Position numbers and translations under genes: made by a program. A stretch of DNA of 33,987 nt from a virus: positions 1 to 33,987 of IMG/VR virus record IMGVR_UViG_3300045921_000114; one strand, written 5' to 3'. The notes below the pieces were generated by a model that worked only from the letters and a program-made list of their open reading frames with translations, did not search any database and had not been told where the DNA came from. Shown one piece after another: positions 5,282 through 33,987 of this stretch (the stretch's first letter is position 1; every line of letters starts with the position of its first letter).

Positions 5282-5305
5282 AAAAAGGGGGGGCCGAAGC
5301 CCCCC
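5282..5305 (-). terminator. Intrinsic terminator with UUCG tetraloop behind the capsid genes
   Basis: On the minus strand the RNA would form GGGGGGC-UUCG-GCCCCCC followed by C and UUUUU. The stem is seven G:C pairs with the exceptionally stable UUCG loop. It lies 6 bases after the cement-protein gene and 23 bases before the next start codon, so it would limit transcription of tail genes relative to capsid genes unless polymerase is modified to ignore terminators. T7 places its single strong terminator in the same place, behind the capsid gene. Confidence 0.9.
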
Positions 5306-13570: not shown

Positions 13571-14881
13571 TCAAATCCTCTGCCTTCCTTTACTTTGCGA
13601 TTCGTTCCAAAGCTCTTCTAGAGACAAGTCCGACCAAAATTGTGCTTTTGGCGGCTTTTCTTCTGCCCGCTCTTCTCGCCACGCGATCGCCATCATGCGA
13701 AAAGCGTCGGCATAGTGACTTGTCCAATCGTGCCGCGGGCGCTCGCGAAAAACCTTGCGGTCTTCATTGTATTCTCGCTGGTACTGCCTGAGCGCCTCGA
13801 GGCCGTCCTCGCACGAGTAATCAAACCAGGTGCGCGGGAACATCGCGCGGGCCGCTTGTATGCCGTCTTGCAGGCTTAGGTCGGGCACAATTGCGGTCTT
13901 TCTGAGCCGCGCATGCACCATCTCTTGGATGCTCTTACCGCCGCTGGCAAGTGTCTTGGCCTTTGCATCATGCGGCAGCCAATGTCCGCCGTACCGGTAG
14001 GGCTTGCTCTCGATGATGTCTAGGTAATGGTTCAAATCCTTGCCGGATGCCGCATAGCATTCGAGAACATGTATCTCTCCGCCGACTACCTGATACCACC
14101 AGATCGCCGTGTCGTCCGTGTAGCCTAAGTCCCAGGCCGTGTAGACCGGCACGGCGTCATCATAGGGAACTTGTGTAATTCGCCCCTCGTCGGCTGCCTG
14201 CCGCATCTCCTGGCCATAGTAGGCACCCGGCAACGCGGCCTCGAACGAACATTCGAGCTCCTGCTCAATCTGATCATTGGTCATGGACTGCCGCATGCTG
14301 GCGATTTCGTCTGGCAGCAGGATGCCAGACTGCGACGCACGCAGCTCGAGGGCGAACCACGTAGGATCACGCTGCGCCAGCCTCCAGGTATCGTAAAAGG
14401 CATTGTGCCCCTTAGGGGTACCGATTACCGTTGCCCATCCTTGCCGGTCAGCAAGCGCAGGCCGGATGACCGCGCCCCAAACAGAAGGCTTCCAGTCTCC
14501 AAATTCGTCGACCACCAGACCGTCGAAGAACAGCCCTCGCAGAGCGTCCGAATTGTCCGCACCAAACACTCGGATGCGTGAGCCGTTTATAAGCTCCACC
14601 CAAAGTTCCGAGGCGTTCTTCTCCCGTCGTATAGGCTCGCTGTAATGCAGCAGGTAGTCCCACGCTACTGCTTTGGCCTGTGTCAAAAACGGCGCGACGT
14701 AAGCGTATCGCCCGGCGGTCTTGCCGTCCACAATCGCCCGCCGGATCAGGTCATTTATGCAAGCTACAGTTTTGCCGGCACGACGATGCGCCACGATGCA
14801 CGCCCATCGCTCTGTGCGGGCGTGGAAAGGCACAAATGCATGCCGGGGAGAATAAGGGATTACGTATTCTCTGACCGCCAC
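13571..14881 (-). CDS. terL: Terminase large subunit
   Basis: A protein of 436 aa. The Walker A motif is AHRRAGKT at residues 31-38 and the Walker B region LVVDEFGD at about 122-129, with a coupling TPKGH segment at about 155-159. The C-terminal RNase H-like nuclease half starts with YTAWDLGYTDDTAIWW (D251 as a metal ligand) and has a later DWTSHYADAFRMMA acidic segment. It is the motor that cuts and packages DNA through the portal. The start is GTG 14881, overlapping the small-subunit gene by 22 bases. Length is slightly below 450 aa, normal for this branch. Confidence 0.93.
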   Translation of the reverse strand: MAVREYVIPYSPRHAFVPFHARTERWACIVAHRRAGKTVACINDLIRRAIVDGKTAGRYAYVAPFLTQAKAVAWDYLLHYSEPIRREKNASELWVELINGSRIRVFGADNSDALRGLFFDGLVVDEFGDWKPSVWGAVIRPALADRQGWATVIGTPKGHNAFYDTWRLAQRDPTWFALELRASQSGILLPDEIASMRQSMTNDQIEQELECSFEAALPGAYYGQEMRQAADEGRITQVPYDDAVPVYTAWDLGYTDDTAIWWYQVVGGEIHVLECYAASGKDLNHYLDIIESKPYRYGGHWLPHDAKAKTLASGGKSIQEMVHARLRKTAIVPDLSLQDGIQAARAMFPRTWFDYSCEDGLEALRQYQREYNEDRKVFRERPRHDWTSHYADAFRMMAIAWREERAEEKPPKAQFWSDLSLEELWNESQSKGRQRI

Positions 14882-15132: not shown

Positions 15133-15326
15133 TAAACGAGACCTCCGATAGCGGTTTTGAGATCATTCTTCGCGTTCTCTAGGTCCAAGAGGGCTTGCCT
15201 GCGCAGCGTCATTAGCTCGGCAATACGGGCTTGCGTCTTGATGAGTTCGGCTTGCAGCGCATCCGTTCGGGTCTTGGACTCTTGCATTACTTGAGCAGCC
15301 CTAATAACGGCTTGGACATTGTCCAT
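15132..15326 (-). CDS. Small coiled-coil protein, first gene of the late operon
   Basis: A protein of 64 aa from ATG 15326, preceded by GAGG 9 bases upstream. An alternative upstream in-frame ATG would run back through the terminator hairpin, so it is rejected. The sequence is one amphipathic helix (MQESKTRTDALQAELIKTQARIAELM...DLENAKNDLKTAIGG) with heptad spacing of Leu/Ile. It precedes the terminase genes and may belong to the packaging machinery, but no family is recognised. Confidence 0.7.
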   Translation of the reverse strand: MDNVQAVIRAAQVMQESKTRTDALQAELIKTQARIAELMTLRRQALLDLENAKNDLKTAIGGLV

Positions 15327-15348: not shown

Positions 15349-15374
15349 AAAAAAATCCCGCGGTTAGGCGGGAT
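15349..15374 (-). terminator. Leader terminator ahead of the late operon
   Basis: On the minus strand the RNA would form AUCCCGC-CUAACC-GCGGGAU followed by an uninterrupted run of U (plus-strand A run 15349-15355). The 7-bp stem is G:C-rich with a 6-base loop. It lies about 85-110 bases downstream of the predicted late start and 23 bases before the ATG of the first late gene. A terminator in this place would block late transcription unless RNA polymerase is made resistant, as lambda tR' does before Q acts. Confidence 0.88.
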
Positions 15375-15465
15375 CAAACGGGATACCGGTGGGAGGTTTG
15401 CCGGGAGCGATTCTTTTTGTGCGCTCGGTGCGGGGAGAGAGGGGCGCACCATCCCGTGCCTTGTC

Positions 15466-15493
15466 AATATACGCCGTTTTTCGGCAATGTCAA
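15466..15493 (-). promoter_or_regulatory. Late promoter, sigma70 type
   Basis: On the minus strand a perfect TTGACA (15488-15493) is followed after 16 bases by TATATT (15466-15471; five of six match TATAAT). The spacer contains GCCG-AAAAA-CGGC, a small dyad. A second TTGACA overlaps the -10 (15462-15467), and a TACGC half-site (15470-15474, plus strand) overlaps it as well. The transcription start would be near 15459, leading into the leader terminator and the late genes. Function is inferred from sequence only. Confidence 0.8.
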
Positions 15494-15942: not shown

Positions 15943-15975
15943 TTGACAGATACGCGCAGTGAGCGTATTGTACGC
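15943..15975 (+). promoter_or_regulatory. Early promoter with overlapping TACGC operator half-sites
   Basis: TTGACA (15943-15948) and TATTGT (15966-15971) are 17 bases apart, giving a good sigma70 promoter with start near 15978. The half-sites TACGC (15951-15955), GCGTA (15963-15967) and TACGC (15971-15975) form two overlapping inverted repeats, ATACGC-N7-GCGTAT and GCGTA-TTG-TACGC, covering spacer and -10. A bound protein would block polymerase. The first early gene starts at 16034. Confidence 0.75.
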
Positions 15976-18019: not shown

Positions 18020-18664
18020 ATGATGGAGGAGTGCGGTGGTGGGCAGAGCTTGGCTGCGCTGTTTGCTGGTCTAGCGAAGGCGCAGGCAAAGATCGGTACG
18101 GCTTTGAAGGACAAGAAAAATCCTTACTTCGGATCGACTTATGCCGATCTTGCGGCAGTCTGGGAAGCTTGCCGGCAAGCGCTGACAGAGCAGGGGATCG
18201 CAGTCATTCAAGCGCCAATCCATTCTGAAGATGGGCGCTTGCACCTGGAAACCACGCTTTGCCACGAGTCCGGGGCGCATTGGTCGCGTATTGCTTCTAT
18301 TCCTGTGGCCAAGCAAGACGCGCACGGTTACGGATCAGCTATTACCTACCTGCGCCGGTACGCTTTGGCGGCCGTCGTAGGGGTTGTGGCTGAGGAAGAC
18401 GACGACGGCAATGCGGCCGTGCAAGTCAAGACCAAGGACGTGCGGCCTACATCTGGCGCTCAGAAGGCGCTATCTGTAGACCAGCGCGCCAAGATCGATG
18501 ATCTTGCGCAGCTTGTGACCAACGTCATCGCCGAGGACGGGCCAAAGTCTGCGGCGCTGGAAATCGAAGCGGCTGGCCTTGATAACGACGAGAAAATTTA
18601 CCTGTGGTCGAAGCTCGATAGCAAGACTCGGGCTGCGATCAAGTCGATCAAGGAGGGAACATGA
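18020..18664 (+). CDS. erf: ERF-family single-strand annealing protein
   Basis: A protein of 214 aa. The family signature is clear: SLAALFAGLAKAQAKIGTALKDKKNPYFGSTYADLAAVWEACRQALTEQGIAVIQ, followed by the DAHGYGSAITYLRRYALAAVVGVVAEEDDDGNAA segment, the ERF core ending at about residue 140. ERF proteins form rings that anneal complementary single strands in RecA-independent phage recombination and genome circularisation. The C-terminal third is a helical linker. Its stop overlaps the next start (ATGA). The start at 18020 or 18023 cannot be separated. A protein with an SSB-like tail (20363-20620) is a likely partner. Confidence 0.9.
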   Translation: MMEECGGGQSLAALFAGLAKAQAKIGTALKDKKNPYFGSTYADLAAVWEACRQALTEQGIAVIQAPIHSEDGRLHLETTLCHESGAHWSRIASIPVAKQDAHGYGSAITYLRRYALAAVVGVVAEEDDDGNAAVQVKTKDVRPTSGAQKALSVDQRAKIDDLAQLVTNVIAEDGPKSAALEIEAAGLDNDEKIYLWSKLDSKTRAAIKSIKEGT

Positions 18665-20863: not shown

Positions 20864-21348
20864 TCCAAGCCGCGGAACTTCTCTGCCGGCCGGCATTAGA
20901 GCAATGGCGGCCGATAGAGACTTCCACAGAGAAAGCCTGCCTTTCCTGCGGTAAGTTTCTTCCGCTTTCGGAGTTTTACTCCTGGCACAGGAAGCGGAAG
21001 GATGGCACGGTTGTTGCTTACAGCTCCTACTGCAAGACGTGCGACGATAGACGTCGTAATGAGCAGAAAAAGAGGAAAAGGATGGAAAGGACGATAGAAA
21101 TGGAGAGAGAGCTAAACGGACTGAAGATCAAGGTGGCCAGCCTTGAGCGGACCGGTTATTTCTTGCGCTACCTCGTGCTGCAGGGGATCAACGCGGCGCG
21201 GGATGGGAAGACCCAACAATGGGCCAAGATGGCTCGAGAGTCTCTAGACGATCTAGACGGTGAGCTAGGGCTCTGGAGAGACGATGAGCCGGTACGAGGG
21301 GCACCATGGCCGACGAGGAACAGGTTTTCGCCTACTGGCAAGAGGTGA
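20860..21348 (+). CDS. CxxC zinc-finger protein with basic coiled coil
   Basis: A protein of 162 aa. C27-x2-C30 (ACLSCGKFLPLSEFY) and C58-x2-C61 (YCKTCDDRRR) form a zinc finger of the 'CxxCGxxKPLSEFY' type that is frequent in phage nucleases and uncharacterised proteins. A very basic helix with heptads follows (residues 64-100). No HNH catalytic pair is visible. The last 43 bases overlap the replication-organiser gene, so the two are probably co-translated. A DNA-binding role next to replication functions is inferred. Confidence 0.75.
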   Translation: MIQAAELLCRPALEQWRPIETSTEKACLSCGKFLPLSEFYSWHRKRKDGTVVAYSSYCKTCDDRRRNEQKKRKRMERTIEMERELNGLKIKVASLERTGYFLRYLVLQGINAARDGKTQQWAKMARESLDDLDGELGLWRDDEPVRGAPWPTRNRFSPTGKR

Positions 21349-21686
21349 TGCAAAAACCTCGCGCCAGGATGGACGAAGCGCGACGCAAGGCCATCCGAGG
21401 CAGGCTTCGGGATGGCTACAGCGTGCAAGACCTGCAAGACGCTATCCGAGGTTGTCGTTTCTCCCGGTTTCACATGGGGGAAAACGACCGCAGAAAGGTC
21501 TATAACGACGTGTCCTTGATTTGCCGGGATGCGGCCCATGTGGATCAGTTTATCGAGATCCTCGAGGCTCACGAGGCCCGTAGACGCGCGGAGAACGAAC
21601 GGGCTTTACCGAGTCCGTCCGAGGTCCGGGTGGTCGCCCCGGAAAGGCTTCAAGAACTCAGGCGGGCGCTCAAGAAGCGAACATGA
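21306..21686 (+). CDS. Replication-organiser C-terminal domain (helicase-loader type)
   Basis: A protein of 126 aa. Residues about 5-85 (VFAYWQEVMQKPRARMDEARRKAIRGRLRDGYSVQDLQDAIRGCRFSRFHMGENDRRKVYNDVSLICRDAAHVDQFIEI) match the C-terminal domain of phage replication initiators, which contacts host helicase. In most phages this domain follows an N-terminal winged helix; here it stands alone, and the preceding gene may supply DNA binding. ATG 21306 follows GAGGGG. It is my strongest candidate for recruiting host replisome proteins to the origin. Confidence 0.7.
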   Translation: MADEEQVFAYWQEVMQKPRARMDEARRKAIRGRLRDGYSVQDLQDAIRGCRFSRFHMGENDRRKVYNDVSLICRDAAHVDQFIEILEAHEARRRAENERALPSPSEVRVVAPERLQELRRALKKRT

Positions 21687-22153: not shown

Positions 22154-22436
22154 GCTACTGCGGGACGAAGGCTATCTAGCCGCAGTAGTCGAGCGCTGGA
22201 ATCCGCACGCCAAGATCCGGCAAGACTTGTTTGGGATTATCGATATTCTGGCGGTCAGGGAAGACGAAACCTTGGCGGTGCAAACAACTAGCTATAGCAA
22301 CGTCTCGGCGAGGGTGAAAAAAATATCAGAGTCCGATGCGCTGGCGGCAATCCGGGAGGCCGGTTGGCGTATCGAGGTACACGGCTGGCACAAGCAGCAC
22401 AACCGCTGGAAAGTGAGGCGCGTAAATGTATCGTGA
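22128..22436 (+). CDS. PD-(D/E)XK nuclease-like small protein (resolvase candidate)
   Basis: A protein of 102 aa. The sequence RSLELLRDEGYLAAVVERWNP is followed by DLFGIIDILAVREDETLAVQTTSYSNVSARVKKI and AIREAGWRIEVHGWHK. The order E...D-x(n)-(E/Q)xT with a final strand and helix is like small Holliday-junction resolvase or VRR-type folds: D38 or D43 and Q51 would stand for the usual D and E. The last catalytic Lys/Glu is replaced by Gln-Thr-Thr, so activity is uncertain. GAGGT precedes ATG 22128. A structure-specific DNA function near recombination genes is plausible. Confidence 0.65.
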   Translation: MTPTQRSLELLRDEGYLAAVVERWNPHAKIRQDLFGIIDILAVREDETLAVQTTSYSNVSARVKKISESDALAAIREAGWRIEVHGWHKQHNRWKVRRVNVS

Positions 22437-22656
22437 TCGAGTAGGGCAGATCATCAAAGAGGGGGCAACCGTGCAAACACCCGCCGGCATGTTGGGCAAA
22501 GTCAGGAGCTTTAACAGCGACGGCCGAGCAAATATCGTTTACGAGCGGACGCCAAAATGGCAGCCGAAGAGAAACGAAAAAGAAAAAAGCAGCTTGCAGA
22601 GCCTGACCGGCGCGAAAGAGATTATTTTGAAGGCAGAGCTGTTGCGCGTAGTGTGA
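22426..22656 (+). CDS. Small basic beta-barrel-like protein
   Basis: A protein of 76 aa (YRDRVGQIIKEGATVQTPAGMLGKVRSFNSDGRANIVYERTPKWQPKRNEKEK) with a short SH3-like barrel pattern (KEGATVQTPAGMLGKVRSF...ANIVYE) and a Lys-rich end. ATG 22426 lies in the end of the previous gene. It runs into the Q-like gene (GTGA overlap at 22653-22656). An RNA or DNA contact role is possible, not shown. Confidence 0.6.
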   Translation: MYRDRVGQIIKEGATVQTPAGMLGKVRSFNSDGRANIVYERTPKWQPKRNEKEKSSLQSLTGAKEIILKAELLRVV

Positions 22657-23159
22657 ATCCCGAAAAACTCGCCCTTATGCAATCCCGCGCTGGGAGCCTG
22701 ACTCCAAGAGTAGACGGCGATCCTATCAGGCACATGACCGCATCAGACATAGCGGCCGCATGCGGGCGGATCAAGTCTCCCTTGGGCGCAGACTTGCTCC
22801 GCGCCAAGTACTGTGCCGACGCAGAGGCTTTGAGAAGGGCTATAAAGCGGCTTGCCGTCCGGGCTCGAGTAATCCACAAGGCCGACGACGCAACGGCCTT
22901 CCGAACGGCGCATGAGGCTATGAGGGCCTTCCTGATTCCGCCTCTATGCCCGACGTGTAAAGGCAGGGCGACCGTGCAGGCCGAGGATCTGGTGATTGTA
23001 TGCCCAGACTGTAACGGCGAAGGCTACATGCCGTCCGGCAAGCTCAACCAGATGACAGCCGACATGCTCGACTGGATCTACAGCGTCGAGGATGTAGCAA
23101 TACAACACCTAGCAGCGGCAGCCAGATCTTGCGCCAGGTCTCCGACCAAAGGCCGATGA
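22653..23159 (+). CDS. Q-type antiterminator candidate (zinc-binding)
   Basis: A protein of 168 aa from GTG 22653, which overlaps the preceding stop as GTGA; a longer frame from 22557 would overlap 100 bases and is less likely. Two CxxC motifs, CPTC (99-102) and CPDC (117-120), with the CxxCxGxG pattern in the second, resemble the zinc loop of lambda-type Q. The N-terminal HMTASDIAAACG segment recalls the 'TDVMAAMG' stretch of lambda Q. Last gene of the early operon, as Q is in lambda. The leader terminator at 15349-15374 is a fitting target. Similarity is short, so the name stays tentative; a plain zinc protein is the alternative. Confidence 0.5.
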   Translation: MNPEKLALMQSRAGSLTPRVDGDPIRHMTASDIAAACGRIKSPLGADLLRAKYCADAEALRRAIKRLAVRARVIHKADDATAFRTAHEAMRAFLIPPLCPTCKGRATVQAEDLVIVCPDCNGEGYMPSGKLNQMTADMLDWIYSVEDVAIQHLAAAARSCARSPTKGR

Positions 23160-23174
23160 ACTCGTCGCGCATGG

Positions 23175-24356
23175 CTACAACTCGCCTCGGAAGGCACGGT
23201 GCTGCAGGGAGGCGAAGAGGGCATCGAGCGCGCGGAGGCCTACGTCGCCTCTGCCCTTAAGCTTATCGATGAGACCAACGACCTTAGCAAAGCGCTGCTT
23301 CGTCGATTCCTCTGGGGCAATGAACCGAAGCGACCTCACCTGCTCAGCATTCAGGTGGGGTTGGGCCGCACGGCGCGTTAGTGGTTCAAGGTGAGACTTC
23401 CCATGAGGCGAGTTGATGAGGAAGTTGTAGAAGACCGCATTCACCCACGACAGCTCTACGATAAGGTCGAATGCTGCATAGGCGCCGTCGTACTCTGAGG
23501 GTACGATGGCGCAGTCTCCGGTATTCACTCCACTCCGCACGATGATTAGGTTGCCGGCTTGGACGCGACATTTCTCTATTCGAGCAGCTTCATCTGGTGA
23601 GATGCGTTTCAAACCCTTTGCGGTGATCGTTCCCGCCTTGATGTTCGTCGCCCTGATAAACGGCAGGCCTTCGTCCACGTAAGGAGGGGGTGAACCAGTT
23701 CCGTATCGAACAGACGTGATCTGGTCCTCGAAACGCCCGATCGGCCACCCCTTCGGATTCGTGGCGGGGTCGCCGAACATGTCGAGGAAGATGGATTGGG
23801 TGAGGGTGTCGAGCTGGGCGAGGGCGGCGCGGCGCTTGGCCCGCAGCGCGTCCACCTTGTCCAGGATCTCCGCAATCCGCCGCTGCTCGGGGAGGGGTGG
23901 CAGCGGGAACCGCAGTGACAGCAGCGCATCTCGACCAACGGTCGCCTGGTTCACCCACTGCCGGCACATCCCTTTGAATCGGCCGTGCTTGAATTGAAGG
24001 TTCAGCCAACGTGTCAAATAGCGCCCATCGATCTCGCCATCACGCGGGCGAAGACGCAAGAAGTGGTTACTGAAGACGGCCGGCTCTTCGAGGCCGGGAA
24101 AAAACGCTGTCTTCCCAACGAGGTCCGGGCTGTTCGTCGCGTTGAATAGAACGTCACCGGGCTGCACTAGGAAGCGATCGATGTTTCGGTAGTCCCGCGG
24201 TACGCGCCGCCGCTTGCTGAGATCGAGCTGGCCCTCGGTCGTGATGTTGTTCATCCGAAACTGGAACACGCCATCATCGACGTCTTCGCCGCAAGCAAAC
24301 CCCGAAGTGGCGTCAGCCAGGACGTCGCCAAGCTCAGTCTCCGGCCAAGCGCTCAT
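23175..24356 (-). CDS. hsdS: Type I restriction-modification specificity subunit HsdS
   Basis: A protein of 393 aa from ATG 24356, overlapping the hsdM stop as ATGA; the long upstream extension of this frame is shadow sequence with Arg/Gly-rich nonsense. Two target-recognition domains (about 1-150 and 200-345) are separated by the conserved helix region PLPPLPEQRRIAEILDKVDALRAKRRAALAQLDTLTQSIFLDMFGDPATNPKGWP, and the C-terminal repeat ends LFASLQHRAFRGEL. Full length with both domains, so it should give one asymmetric DNA target. It directs HsdM to its sites. Convergent with the early operon, 15 bases away. Confidence 0.92.
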   Translation of the reverse strand: MSAWPETELGDVLADATSGFACGEDVDDGVFQFRMNNITTEGQLDLSKRRRVPRDYRNIDRFLVQPGDVLFNATNSPDLVGKTAFFPGLEEPAVFSNHFLRLRPRDGEIDGRYLTRWLNLQFKHGRFKGMCRQWVNQATVGRDALLSLRFPLPPLPEQRRIAEILDKVDALRAKRRAALAQLDTLTQSIFLDMFGDPATNPKGWPIGRFEDQITSVRYGTGSPPPYVDEGLPFIRATNIKAGTITAKGLKRISPDEAARIEKCRVQAGNLIIVRSGVNTGDCAIVPSEYDGAYAAFDLIVELSWVNAVFYNFLINSPHGKSHLEPLTRRAAQPHLNAEQVRSLRFIAPEESTKQRFAKVVGLIDKLKGRGDVGLRALDALFASLQHRAFRGEL

Positions 24357-25906
24357 CCCAGCATCCCCTCCAACTCCTTCATCCCCCGCTGGATTTCCTC
24401 CTCCAACTTCGCCAGCTCCGCGAGGATCTCCTTCGGTGCGCGGTGCTCCACCGCCTCGTGCACCACCTCCTTGTAGCGGTTGAGCGAGAGGTCGTAGCCC
24501 TGCGCGGCGATGTCGGCCTTGGGCACGCAGAAGCTCTGCGCGGTGCGCGGGCGTTCGCGCTCGGCGCCCGCGCGCTGCGTCCAGCGCGCCAGCAGGTCGG
24601 GCAAATTGTTCTTCGCGTGTTCGTCCTCGCTCAGCGGGGCGCGCGGCACCGGGCCGAGCTTGTCCTCCGGCAGCAGCGGCGTGCGCTTGTCGTCCAGGCT
24701 CCAGCCGTCGGCCGCGACGTCGTAGAACCACACCTGGTCGGTGCCGCCGGAGTTGGTCTTGGTGAAGAGCAGGATCGCGGTGGAGACGCCCGCGTAGGGC
24801 CGGAACACGCCGCCGGGCAGCTTGACCACGGCGTCGAGCTTGTGTTCTTCCACCAGCATGCGGCGCAGTTGTTTGTGCGCGGTGCTGGAGCCGAACAGCA
24901 CGCCGTCGGGCACGATCACCGCGGCGCGGCCGCCGGCTTTGAGCAGGCGCAGGAACAGCGCCAGGAACAGCAGCTCGGTCTTCTTGGTCTTGACGATCTG
25001 CAGCAGGTCCTTGGCGGTGTTCTCGTAGTCCAGGCTGCCAGCGAAAGGCGGATTGGCCAGCACCAGCGTGTACTTCTCTTCCTCGCCCGCGTGGTCCTGC
25101 GCCAAGGAGTCGCGGTAGTGGATGTCGGGGTTCTCCACGCCGTGCAGCAGCATGTTCATGCTGCCGATGCGCAGCATGGTATGGTCGAAGTCGAAGCCGT
25201 GAAACATCCGGTGGTGGAAGTGCTCGCGCAGCTTCGCGTCGTGCAGGAGGTTCTGGTGGCGATCGCGCAGGTACTCGCCGGCGGCGACGAGAAAGCCCGC
25301 GGTGCCGCAGGCTGGTTCGCAGATTACGTCGTTGGGCTGCGGAGCGGTCAGCTCCACCATCAGCCGGATAATGTGGCGCGGGGTGCGGAACTGGCCGTTC
25401 TGCCCGGCGCTGGCGATCTTGTCGAGCATGTACTCGTAAACGTCGCCTTTGATGTCCCGGTCTTCCATCGGCACCGCGTCGAGCAGGTCCACCACCTTGG
25501 CCAGCAGCGCCGGCGCGGGGATGGTGAAGCGCGCGTCCTTCATGTGGTGCGCGTAGGTGGAGTCGTCGCCGCCGTGGTGACGGGCCAGCTCGTTGCGCAG
25601 GAAGGGGAAGACATGCTCGCCGATCACGGCGTACATGTCGCCGGGAGCGAAGTGCTTGAAGCGCGACCAGCGCATGTCCTCGTAGGGACGGCCCTTGGGG
25701 TCGTTGCCCTCGGGGAAGACGCGGCGCTCCATCGGCCGCTTGAGCCGGGCGGCCTTGTTCTCCTCCAGCGTGTGCAGGTCGTCCAGCCGGCGCAGGAAGA
25801 GCAGGTAAGTGATCTGCTCGACCACCTCCAGCGGGTTAGAGATGCCGCCGTACAAGAAAGAGTTCCAGATGCGGTTAATTTGGTTCTTGATGGCGCCGGT
25901 GATCAT
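24353..25906 (-). CDS. hsdM: Type I methyltransferase subunit HsdM
   Basis: A protein of 517 aa from ATG 25906; upstream codons of this frame add a Cys-rich 25-residue piece unlike the family and are left out. The N-terminal helical domain (IKNQINRIWNSFLYGGISNPLEVVEQITYLLFLRRLDD) is followed by the S-adenosylmethionine motif CEPACGTAGF (about 196-205) and the catalytic NPPF (285-288), as in N6-adenine methyltransferases. Normal family length. It pairs with the adjacent HsdS to methylate DNA. No HsdR is encoded anywhere in this genome. The gene looks G+C-richer and more biased in codon third positions than its neighbours, which suggests recent acquisition. Confidence 0.93.
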   Translation of the reverse strand: MITGAIKNQINRIWNSFLYGGISNPLEVVEQITYLLFLRRLDDLHTLEENKAARLKRPMERRVFPEGNDPKGRPYEDMRWSRFKHFAPGDMYAVIGEHVFPFLRNELARHHGGDDSTYAHHMKDARFTIPAPALLAKVVDLLDAVPMEDRDIKGDVYEYMLDKIASAGQNGQFRTPRHIIRLMVELTAPQPNDVICEPACGTAGFLVAAGEYLRDRHQNLLHDAKLREHFHHRMFHGFDFDHTMLRIGSMNMLLHGVENPDIHYRDSLAQDHAGEEEKYTLVLANPPFAGSLDYENTAKDLLQIVKTKKTELLFLALFLRLLKAGGRAAVIVPDGVLFGSSTAHKQLRRMLVEEHKLDAVVKLPGGVFRPYAGVSTAILLFTKTNSGGTDQVWFYDVAADGWSLDDKRTPLLPEDKLGPVPRAPLSEDEHAKNNLPDLLARWTQRAGAERERPRTAQSFCVPKADIAAQGYDLSLNRYKEVVHEAVEHRAPKEILAELAKLEEEIQRGMKELEGMLG

Positions 25907-26068
25907 GAGGTCAGGCCCCCAGGTCTTGTCATTAAAGCACTTGCCGCCACGGCACGGACAGCACGTCCGGCGTGACCACACTCGACCGTGCGCCCAGTGT
26001 GCAGCAGCAGCCCGGCGCGCCCCTGCGCAATGAGATTAGCGGTCGGCCACAGCCACTAGAAAAGGCTC

Positions 26069-26886: not shown

Positions 26887-27336
26887 TCAACCACCGAGAC
26901 CGGTGCGATAGACGACGCGGCCGCCGTCTCTCGTGGCGGTCAGCACTTGACGCCTCGGCTTATCGATCCTGACGCCAAGATGCACCCATGACCCGAACTC
27001 TAGTATTAGTTGGTCGAATGGGAGATCGCTTTGCGCTATTGCCTGCGCTACCATCTGCGCATGGCCGAAGCGCGGAACGATAAGATCGGCAGCCAATCCC
27101 CGCATGTGGGCGCTGCCATCAGATCCGCCGACACGTGCATTGACCACAGGGCTGCGGTAGCCTGAGGTAATGATCACTGGATTGTTGCCGCAGATAGCAC
27201 GCACACGCTCGAGGTGAGCGCACAGGAAAACCAGACGATAGAGCGTGTCCTCTGTCGGCGTGTTATCCAAACCGTTGCGGGCCGCAGTTTGGGAAGCGGT
27301 CAGTTCCTCAAGCGTGAAGTTCTTCGACAGGTTCAT
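26887..27336 (-). CDS. Endolysin, peptidase M15A family
   Basis: A protein of 149 aa. The family motifs are SGYR (58-61), SAHMRGLAADL (75-85; H77 and D84 as zinc ligands) and WVHLGV (117-122; H119 as third ligand). M15A phage enzymes are cell-wall peptidases, often L-Ala-D-Glu or D-Ala-D-Ala cleaving. It has no signal peptide, so release needs the holin. ATG 27336 follows GGAG. Single-domain architecture suits a Gram-negative host. Confidence 0.92.
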   Translation of the reverse strand: MNLSKNFTLEELTASQTAARNGLDNTPTEDTLYRLVFLCAHLERVRAICGNNPVIITSGYRSPVVNARVGGSDGSAHMRGLAADLIVPRFGHAQMVAQAIAQSDLPFDQLILEFGSWVHLGVRIDKPRRQVLTATRDGGRVVYRTGLGG

Positions 27337-33349: not shown

Positions 33350-33987
33350 CAATCAATCCTTTCAATGCGCCAACCAGACTGCTGCGGGTCTTGTTGAATC
33401 GGCTGAGGCTTTCCATTTTTGAAGTTTTCCAGCGCTTTGCGTTCTTCCTTGGTGAGGAAGGTGTCGCCGAAACGCTCTCTCATAAGCTCGTTTAGCTTTT
33501 GGCTGGAGAATTGACCAGAACGAACAAGCTGGTCTTTCATGTCGGCCCTGAAAGCCGCTCGTTCTGCCATTCTCTCTGCCAGTTTGACCATAAGCTCCCG
33601 GCCTTCCCTGCGATTTATAAGACTTGGAAGCGCGCTTAGATAAGTCCTCATCTCAAAGTCTGATGTCGCGCCAGAGCCCGCCACGCGCATGGTGGGCGCA
33701 AGCCTGGCCCGGATGCTTTCCGCAACTGCGTTTGCATCCGCCATACGAGCGAGATCCGTTCCTTCTGGCATGTATTGCCCGAGAGTCGCTTTGAACTGAT
33801 CCAATCGCCCGCCCGAATAAGGCGCGAGAATGTCTGCGATTGCGCGCACCTGCAAAGCGTTATCGTAAGCAGAATCGGCAATGTCCCTTAGCTTGCCGAC
33901 AGATTCAGCATCCTGCTGGCTTAGTTTTTTCTCGTAAGCCCCTACGGTTACATTCATTTCCGGCTTTCCTGCGGCCGCTTTGGAAAG
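33349..33987 (-). CDS. Ejection/internal virion protein, C-terminal part (continues from 1-1233)
   Basis: The frame is open to the right end and, on the circle, joins the N-terminal part at 1-1233 (33811-33987 duplicates 1-177). This portion holds VGAYEKKLSQQDAESVGKLRDIADSAY, a long Leu/Ala/Arg helix region, MRTYLSALPSLINRREGRELMVKLAERMAERAAFRADM and the end QDPQQSGWRIERID. An apparent start at 33957 is an internal Met. Coil-forming and without enzyme motifs. Confidence 0.75.
   Translation of the reverse strand, partial: LSKAAAGKPEMNVTVGAYEKKLSQQDAESVGKLRDIADSAYDNALQVRAIADILAPYSGGRLDQFKATLGQYMPEGTDLARMADANAVAESIRARLAPTMRVAGSGATSDFEMRTYLSALPSLINRREGRELMVKLAERMAERAAFRADMKDQLVRSGQFSSQKLNELMRERFGDTFLTKEERKALENFKNGKPQPIQQDPQQSGWRIERID
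33811..33987. repeat. Right copy of the terminal overlap
   Basis: Same segment as 1-177, identical over the last 127 bases, with substitutions at positions corresponding to 28 (G for A), 40 (C for A) and 50 (T for G). Features in this copy duplicate those at the left end and should be counted once. Confidence 0.9.

Follow-up and report, generated by a model that had tools for sequence, protein, structure and literature searches.

The late genes of many phages are under the control of Q-like antiterminators, a group in which members not covered by the classical Pfam families are readily left without a name. The authors of one AlpA study expected that further Q-like antiterminators would be found by means of structure (PMC9371919). 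The question raised by the present locus is whether the last early gene of an uncultivated podovirus encodes such a protein and whether the terminated leader in front of the late genes is its target. The answer favored here, with a probability of about 0.8, is that the ORF at 22653-23159 encodes a divergent lambda-Q-like processive antiterminator, the last product of the rightward early operon. Homology, predicted fold, gene position, and a leader that combines a promoter with a terminator support this reading.

The Last Early Gene and Its Setting

The window, which is the whole stretch of 33,987 nt analyzed here and constitutes the virus record, has two ends (1-177 and 33811-33987) that overlap with 174 of 177 bases identical, so that the map closes at about 33.8 kb and the leftward late operon can be traced across the ends. 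No end repeat is recorded for the virus record despite this overlap, which falls in a single late ORF, open on both sides. Three tandem 27-nt repeats (849-929) are found in the late ORF at the left end. The genes that define the early and late blocks are as follows.

22653-23159, + strand: putative Q-like antiterminator gene (168 aa, GTG start, CxxC-x14-CxxC)
22426-22656, + strand: upstream early ORF, its TGA overlapping the GTG start of the Q-like gene
18020-18664, rightward: early gene for an ERF-type annealing protein
21306-21686, rightward: early gene, replication protein O-like piece
13571-14881, - strand: large terminase gene, which matches phage terminases by tblastn and marks the late operon downstream of the leader
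26887-27336, leftward: late gene for an endolysin
23175-25981, - strand: HsdM and HsdS genes (type I restriction-modification), separating the Q-like gene from the end of the late block

The portal and major head protein genes also belong to the leftward late block. The ORF at 22653-23159 exists as an open frame and is, as the original prediction held, the final early gene on the + strand, with the HsdS and HsdM genes beyond it converging on it from the - strand. A promoter-like site directed toward the early genes (TTGACA-N17-TATTGT, 15943-15971, + strand) lies back to back with the presumed late promoter and is likely to be the early promoter.

The Q-like ORF is nested in a longer frame that begins with an ATG at 22557. 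From 22653 on, the third codon position has a GC content of 0.66, and in 22557-22652 it has 0.34; four neighboring early ORFs have 0.64-0.68. Because the GTG at 22653 overlaps the upstream TGA, and because coding-like composition is present only from this position, it is preferred over the ATG as the start; the overlap further suggests that the two ORFs are translationally coupled. The 168-aa protein contains both of the CxxC pairs that had been described for it (C99xxC102-x14-C117xxC120), a motif from which a zinc segment is predicted.

Homology to Lambda Q

The 168-aa protein matches PHROG_127, the lambda Q family, at E = 6.4e-6 in two stretches that are in the correct order, and the longer reading from ATG 22557 does so at E = 3.3e-5; lambda Q itself, as a control, scores E = 7.6e-83. 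The model TIGR02642 is matched at E = 1.9e-5, close to the value with which lambda Q matches the same model (1.4e-5). Neither PF03589, on which lambda Q scores 193 bits, nor PF06530, the phage 21 Q family, gave a row for the window protein at E <= 5, such that the profile search proposed earlier supports membership in a Q family through PHROG_127 and not through the Pfam models. The evidence from this single sequence is modest but consistent. Six-frame searches with PHROG_127 at loose thresholds also find matches in 13/14 and 11/14 control genomes, and evidence beyond PHROG_127 was therefore needed.

The nearest annotated relative is the "antitermination protein" UOF80927.1 of podovirus MW202713. 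A tblastn search of phages, in which it was the one match at E <= 0.01, aligned 52% of the query with it at 32% identity (E = 7e-3), and phmmer recovered it from 9,805 ORFs at 2.9e-8. Neither the single protein nor a four-row alignment identified close relatives in viral contigs or bacterial genomes, and open-licence papers contained no account of the window protein that could be found. An alignment-based scan supplied two relatives (L133 and L134). When the zinc segment was searched for as a DNA pattern, at least 120 stretches matched, so that the relatives used here are a sample. Twelve pattern-derived ORFs were picked by their score on the four-row model and by eye (L222, L201, L228, L254, L279, L255, L204, L206, L270, L277, L246, and L198), while L242 (partial), L135/L241, L193, L294, L203, and other weaker rows were omitted. 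Three of the twelve (L279, L206, and L270) match PHROG_127 at 1e-22 to 1e-26 and share the N-domain pattern of the window protein, and they thus bridge the window protein to lambda Q. Aligned with these relatives, the window protein retains the N-domain pattern together with all four cysteines.

Gene position can be compared in two cases. The gene of relative L134 is found between recombination-type genes and terminase, the usual place of Q, and directly before the terminase genes, and the MW202713 Q gene comes after lambda-like early genes. Phages chosen for other related genes yielded no further matches: a 15-row profile, built from 15 relatives, found nothing in 50 records that carry a related terminase or ERF gene, which counts against the favored reading; PF06530 had no match in 39 records of related phages; and PHROG_127 had none in 48 records with related ERF genes, a search that also missed MW202713, which is known to hold a relative. 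Two candidates were treated separately. The "anti-TRAP" protein of Xanthomonas PhiXhv-2 was set aside, as its gene is directly before the large terminase gene, where the small subunit is expected. Vibrio phage douglas VPAG_00015 has the Q position and the motif, yet reached only E = 10 in tblastn and was used in one alignment only. The pattern search also returned a recurrent small phage zinc protein (in the range L181-L300, e.g., L271, L282, and L298) with the arrangement CxxC ... FYELVCTDCNGSGW, which accounts by eye for about 28 of the 102 listed pattern ORFs and is apparently not Q.

Profiles made the relationship to lambda Q considerably clearer. A PDB search with the single window protein found nothing above chance. 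With the 15-row profile, the top-ranking of the 177,635 distinct PDB sequences was lambda Q (7ubm/7ubn; E = 1.1e-6), followed by the lambda Q entries 4mo1 and 7ubj; AlpA chains were absent at E <= 1. In a full-length profile-profile comparison, nine lambda Q relatives were matched at E = 9.4e-14, with an alignment that covers most of lambda Q. The likeness to lambda Q that had been claimed is thereby substantiated, although its restriction to a short N-terminal stretch is not, and the idea of a divergent Q family survives as that of a distant lambda Q homologue, by sequence and fold, rather than as an unrelated new family.

These comparisons also bear on a simpler explanation, in which the protein is a small zinc-ribbon protein of an ordinary kind (DnaJ-like, anti-TRAP-like, or nuclease-related), similar to Q in nothing but its cysteines. 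Weak Pfam matches below the cut-offs, to DnaJ_CXXCXGXG and Anti-TRAP, would fit this explanation. The cysteine-free N-domain alone, however, still aligns with the lambda Q relatives (profile-profile E = 1.4e-5, with 0/200 column shuffles as good), and the structural match described below takes in the N-domain and the C-terminal helix, making a mere zinc-ribbon protein very improbable. When only the seven closest sequences are used, the match of the cysteine-free part is weak (E = 0.008, 1/200 shuffles as good).

Predicted Structure

The AlphaFold2 model of the window protein is confident for residues 30-95 and poor for the zinc segment (mean pLDDT 71). Foldseek alone listed no Q among the best 50 matches of this model. 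A second-look alignment with VIA, which took in 253 of the top Foldseek chains, placed lambda Q first (7ubm, Z 9.5, 3.3 A over 99 residues; 7ubn, Z 9.2, 4.0 A over 116 residues) and AlpA next (7xya, Z 8.1 over 108 residues; 7xyb, Z 6.9), with all other chains at or below 4.0. The model of the L134 relative (pLDDT 85) has lambda Q as its top Foldseek match (E = 1.8e-3, probability 1.00), and the first eight rows of its VIA table are all lambda Q or AlpA, with Z from 12.3 to 6.3 and the next row at 4.6. A Foldseek viral library contributed two matches near E = 6e-3, one to an uncharacterized protein and one to an unnamed entry. A structure that resembles no Q protein had been put forward as grounds for abandoning the prediction; the predicted structure is not of this kind, as lambda Q and AlpA provide the four best VIA matches of the window model. 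Of the two Q proteins that had been proposed for comparison, lambda Q is matched and phage 21 Q is absent from the VIA tables of both models, an absence that excludes nothing.

The part of the protein that follows the last zinc cysteine is unusual. It is 48 residues long and the shortest among 23 aligned proteins, the 22 others having 49-74, and the model has a single continuous helix (133-162), with no clear helix-turn-helix, where the L134 model has a helix-turn-helix. The alignments disagree on the C-terminal gap of the window protein: by one of them, the first helix of the helix-turn-helix would be missing, and a different reading could leave a short helix-turn-helix in place. Together with the low confidence of the modeled zinc segment, the short tail and the single helix might indicate that the protein is a degenerate or repurposed descendant of a lambda-like Q, which no longer binds a Q-binding element and leaves the late genes to be switched on in some other way, for example through a different early protein or because the leader terminator is naturally read through. 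The window protein nevertheless keeps the N-domain pattern as well as each of the four cysteines, its frame is open with coding-like GC3, and a leader that needs an antiterminator is present in the genome, such that decay or repurposing appears unlikely. A variant of the functional lambda-Q-like antiterminator is conceivable though doubtful, in which the protein has lost the first helix of the DNA-binding helix-turn-helix and acts in trans, its gene being at the distal end of an early operon that is inverted. It would load on the paused polymerase mainly via the zinc segment and a sigma factor that the overlapping -35-like TTGACA retains, instead of via a classical Q-binding element.

The Terminated Late Leader

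The proposed target is a leader directly upstream of the terminase genes, with a second terminator located farther along the late operon.

15466-15493, - strand: presumed late promoter, TTGACA-N16-TATATT (11/12 consensus bases)
15462-15467, - strand: second TTGACA, which overlaps the -10 at the position occupied in lambda pR' by the -35-like element
15473-15485, - strand: candidate Q-binding element within the spacer of the promoter, a GCCG-AAAAA-CGGC repeat
15354-15375, - strand: leader terminator hairpin followed by a T tract (8-bp stem, -12.4 kcal/mol)
5288-5305, - strand: terminator inside the late operon, GGGGGGCTTCGGCCCCCC CTTTTT (seven G-C pairs, TTCG loop, -15.3 kcal/mol)

The leader T tract ends about 112 nt past the inferred transcription start, and beyond the terminator a start codon at 15326 begins the ORFs that lead into terminase. 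The two terminators are the best combinations of hairpin and T tract on the late strand, in agreement with the earlier claims of a terminated late leader in the same genome and of a strong terminator within the late operon. A scan of the whole window on both strands for a promoter with a terminator 20-250 nt downstream finds the 15493-15354 leader as its only module, and across ten Markov sequences of the size of the window there was a single module, whose promoter did not reach 11/12. The scan is insensitive, as it misses the leader of lambda itself and is positive in 3/16 Q-containing stretches.

The second TTGACA resembles the arrangement in the lambda record (L132), where TAAATT overlaps TTGACT. 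TTGACA occurs 19 times in the window, both strands included, so that one would lie by chance within about ten positions of any chosen site with a probability of roughly 0.3%. Loading of lambda Q requires the -35-like element, and other lambdoid late promoters are described as being without one (PMC6606751). The GCCG/CGGC repeat is weakly suggested by its sequence to be a Q-binding element and is only a candidate, because an all-GC 4-bp repeat arises in 2.5% of random 16-mers. Among the hexamers after the start, inspection by eye revealed no clear -10-like pause element, the nearest being the weak GATGGT at 15453-15448.

The design recurs elsewhere. Contigs L005 and L006, with terminases 79% identical, have a TTGACA-containing terminated leader before the terminase genes, which suggests that the terminated leader is conserved in the terminase-related group. 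In L005, an ORF in the Q position (1390-1719, + strand), after a RusA-like gene and before the terminated leader, matches only PHROG_79 (Q-like; E = 0.065), and the candidate Q of L005 and L006 is possibly a different, barely recognizable protein, perhaps a Q of another type. Just past the Q-like gene in L255, L204, and L270, palindromes around GTGACA or TTGATG are accompanied by a strong terminator within about 100 nt; these stretches are probably the late leaders of their clade, with the Q site included.

Presumed Action at a Distance

The Q-like gene (+ strand) and the leader (- strand) are 7 kb apart on opposite strands, with the early block directed away from the late block, and the gene is therefore not directly upstream of the late promoter as would be expected of a Q gene. 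The protein must, as a consequence, act in trans. In both MW202713 and L134, the late genes are downstream of Q on the same strand, unlike in the window, and the three Q-containing stretches that were positive in the scan (L255, L204, and L277) have their promoter-terminator module within 900 nt after Q, where the window has none. This difference could be taken to mean that a functional lambda-Q-like antiterminator is made whose target is elsewhere, at an unrecognized site or within the early operon, instead of at the 15.5-kb leader. Set against this are the lack of a second module in the scan of the window, the position of the leader immediately before the terminase genes with its TTGACA overlapping as in lambda pR', and the closure of the map by the 177-nt end overlap, which together leave a different target quite improbable.

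The favored reading thus remains that of an antiterminator for the 15.5-kb leader. The protein, made last from the rightward early operon, would act in trans at this leader through DNA binding at the promoter, pausing, and binding to the polymerase, by analogy with lambda Q, 21Q, and AlpA, after which RNA polymerase would read through the leader terminator into the late genes. An uncultivated podovirus is in this way tied to lambda Q through a chain of intermediates, and its protein and leader form a pair open to joint testing. Should a reduced C-terminus and a remote promoter prove compatible with activity, they would help to define the parts of lambda Q that loading requires.

Comparison with Known Systems

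Most likely, the window protein belongs to an already known type of Q, with a very divergent sequence and a gene unusually far from its presumed promoter. With lambda Q it shares profile-level homology over most of its length, the CxxC pairs, the best structural match, the status of last early gene, and a terminated leader behind a late promoter with an overlapping -35-like element. It differs in being below detection by PF03589, in having 48 residues after the last zinc cysteine as compared to 60 in lambda Q, and in the location of its gene away from the late promoter. Relative to the window protein, the MW202713 Q has a longer C-terminal part and a lambda-like gene order.

AlpA of Pseudomonas aeruginosa (7xya and 7xyb) is the second-best fold match, with a Z score near that of lambda Q. 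It works at a promoter with a downstream terminator (PMC7969949) and is described as being without the lambda Q zinc finger (PMC9371919); unlike the phage Q proteins, AlpA governs a bacterial lysis programme. Phage 21 Q (PF06530) and GafZ of Caulobacter do the same job in print at the same kind of leader, GafZ being likened here from descriptions, and the window protein has no match to PF06530. GafZ is reported to have a palindrome between the -35 and -10 (PMC11150451). As these systems are described, Q, AlpA, and GafZ all use an element that lies between the -35 and -10 of a promoter with a downstream terminator, and 21Q, AlpA, and lambda Q narrow the RNA exit channel (PMC6606751, PMC9371919, PMC7171158, PMC7969949, PMC11150451).
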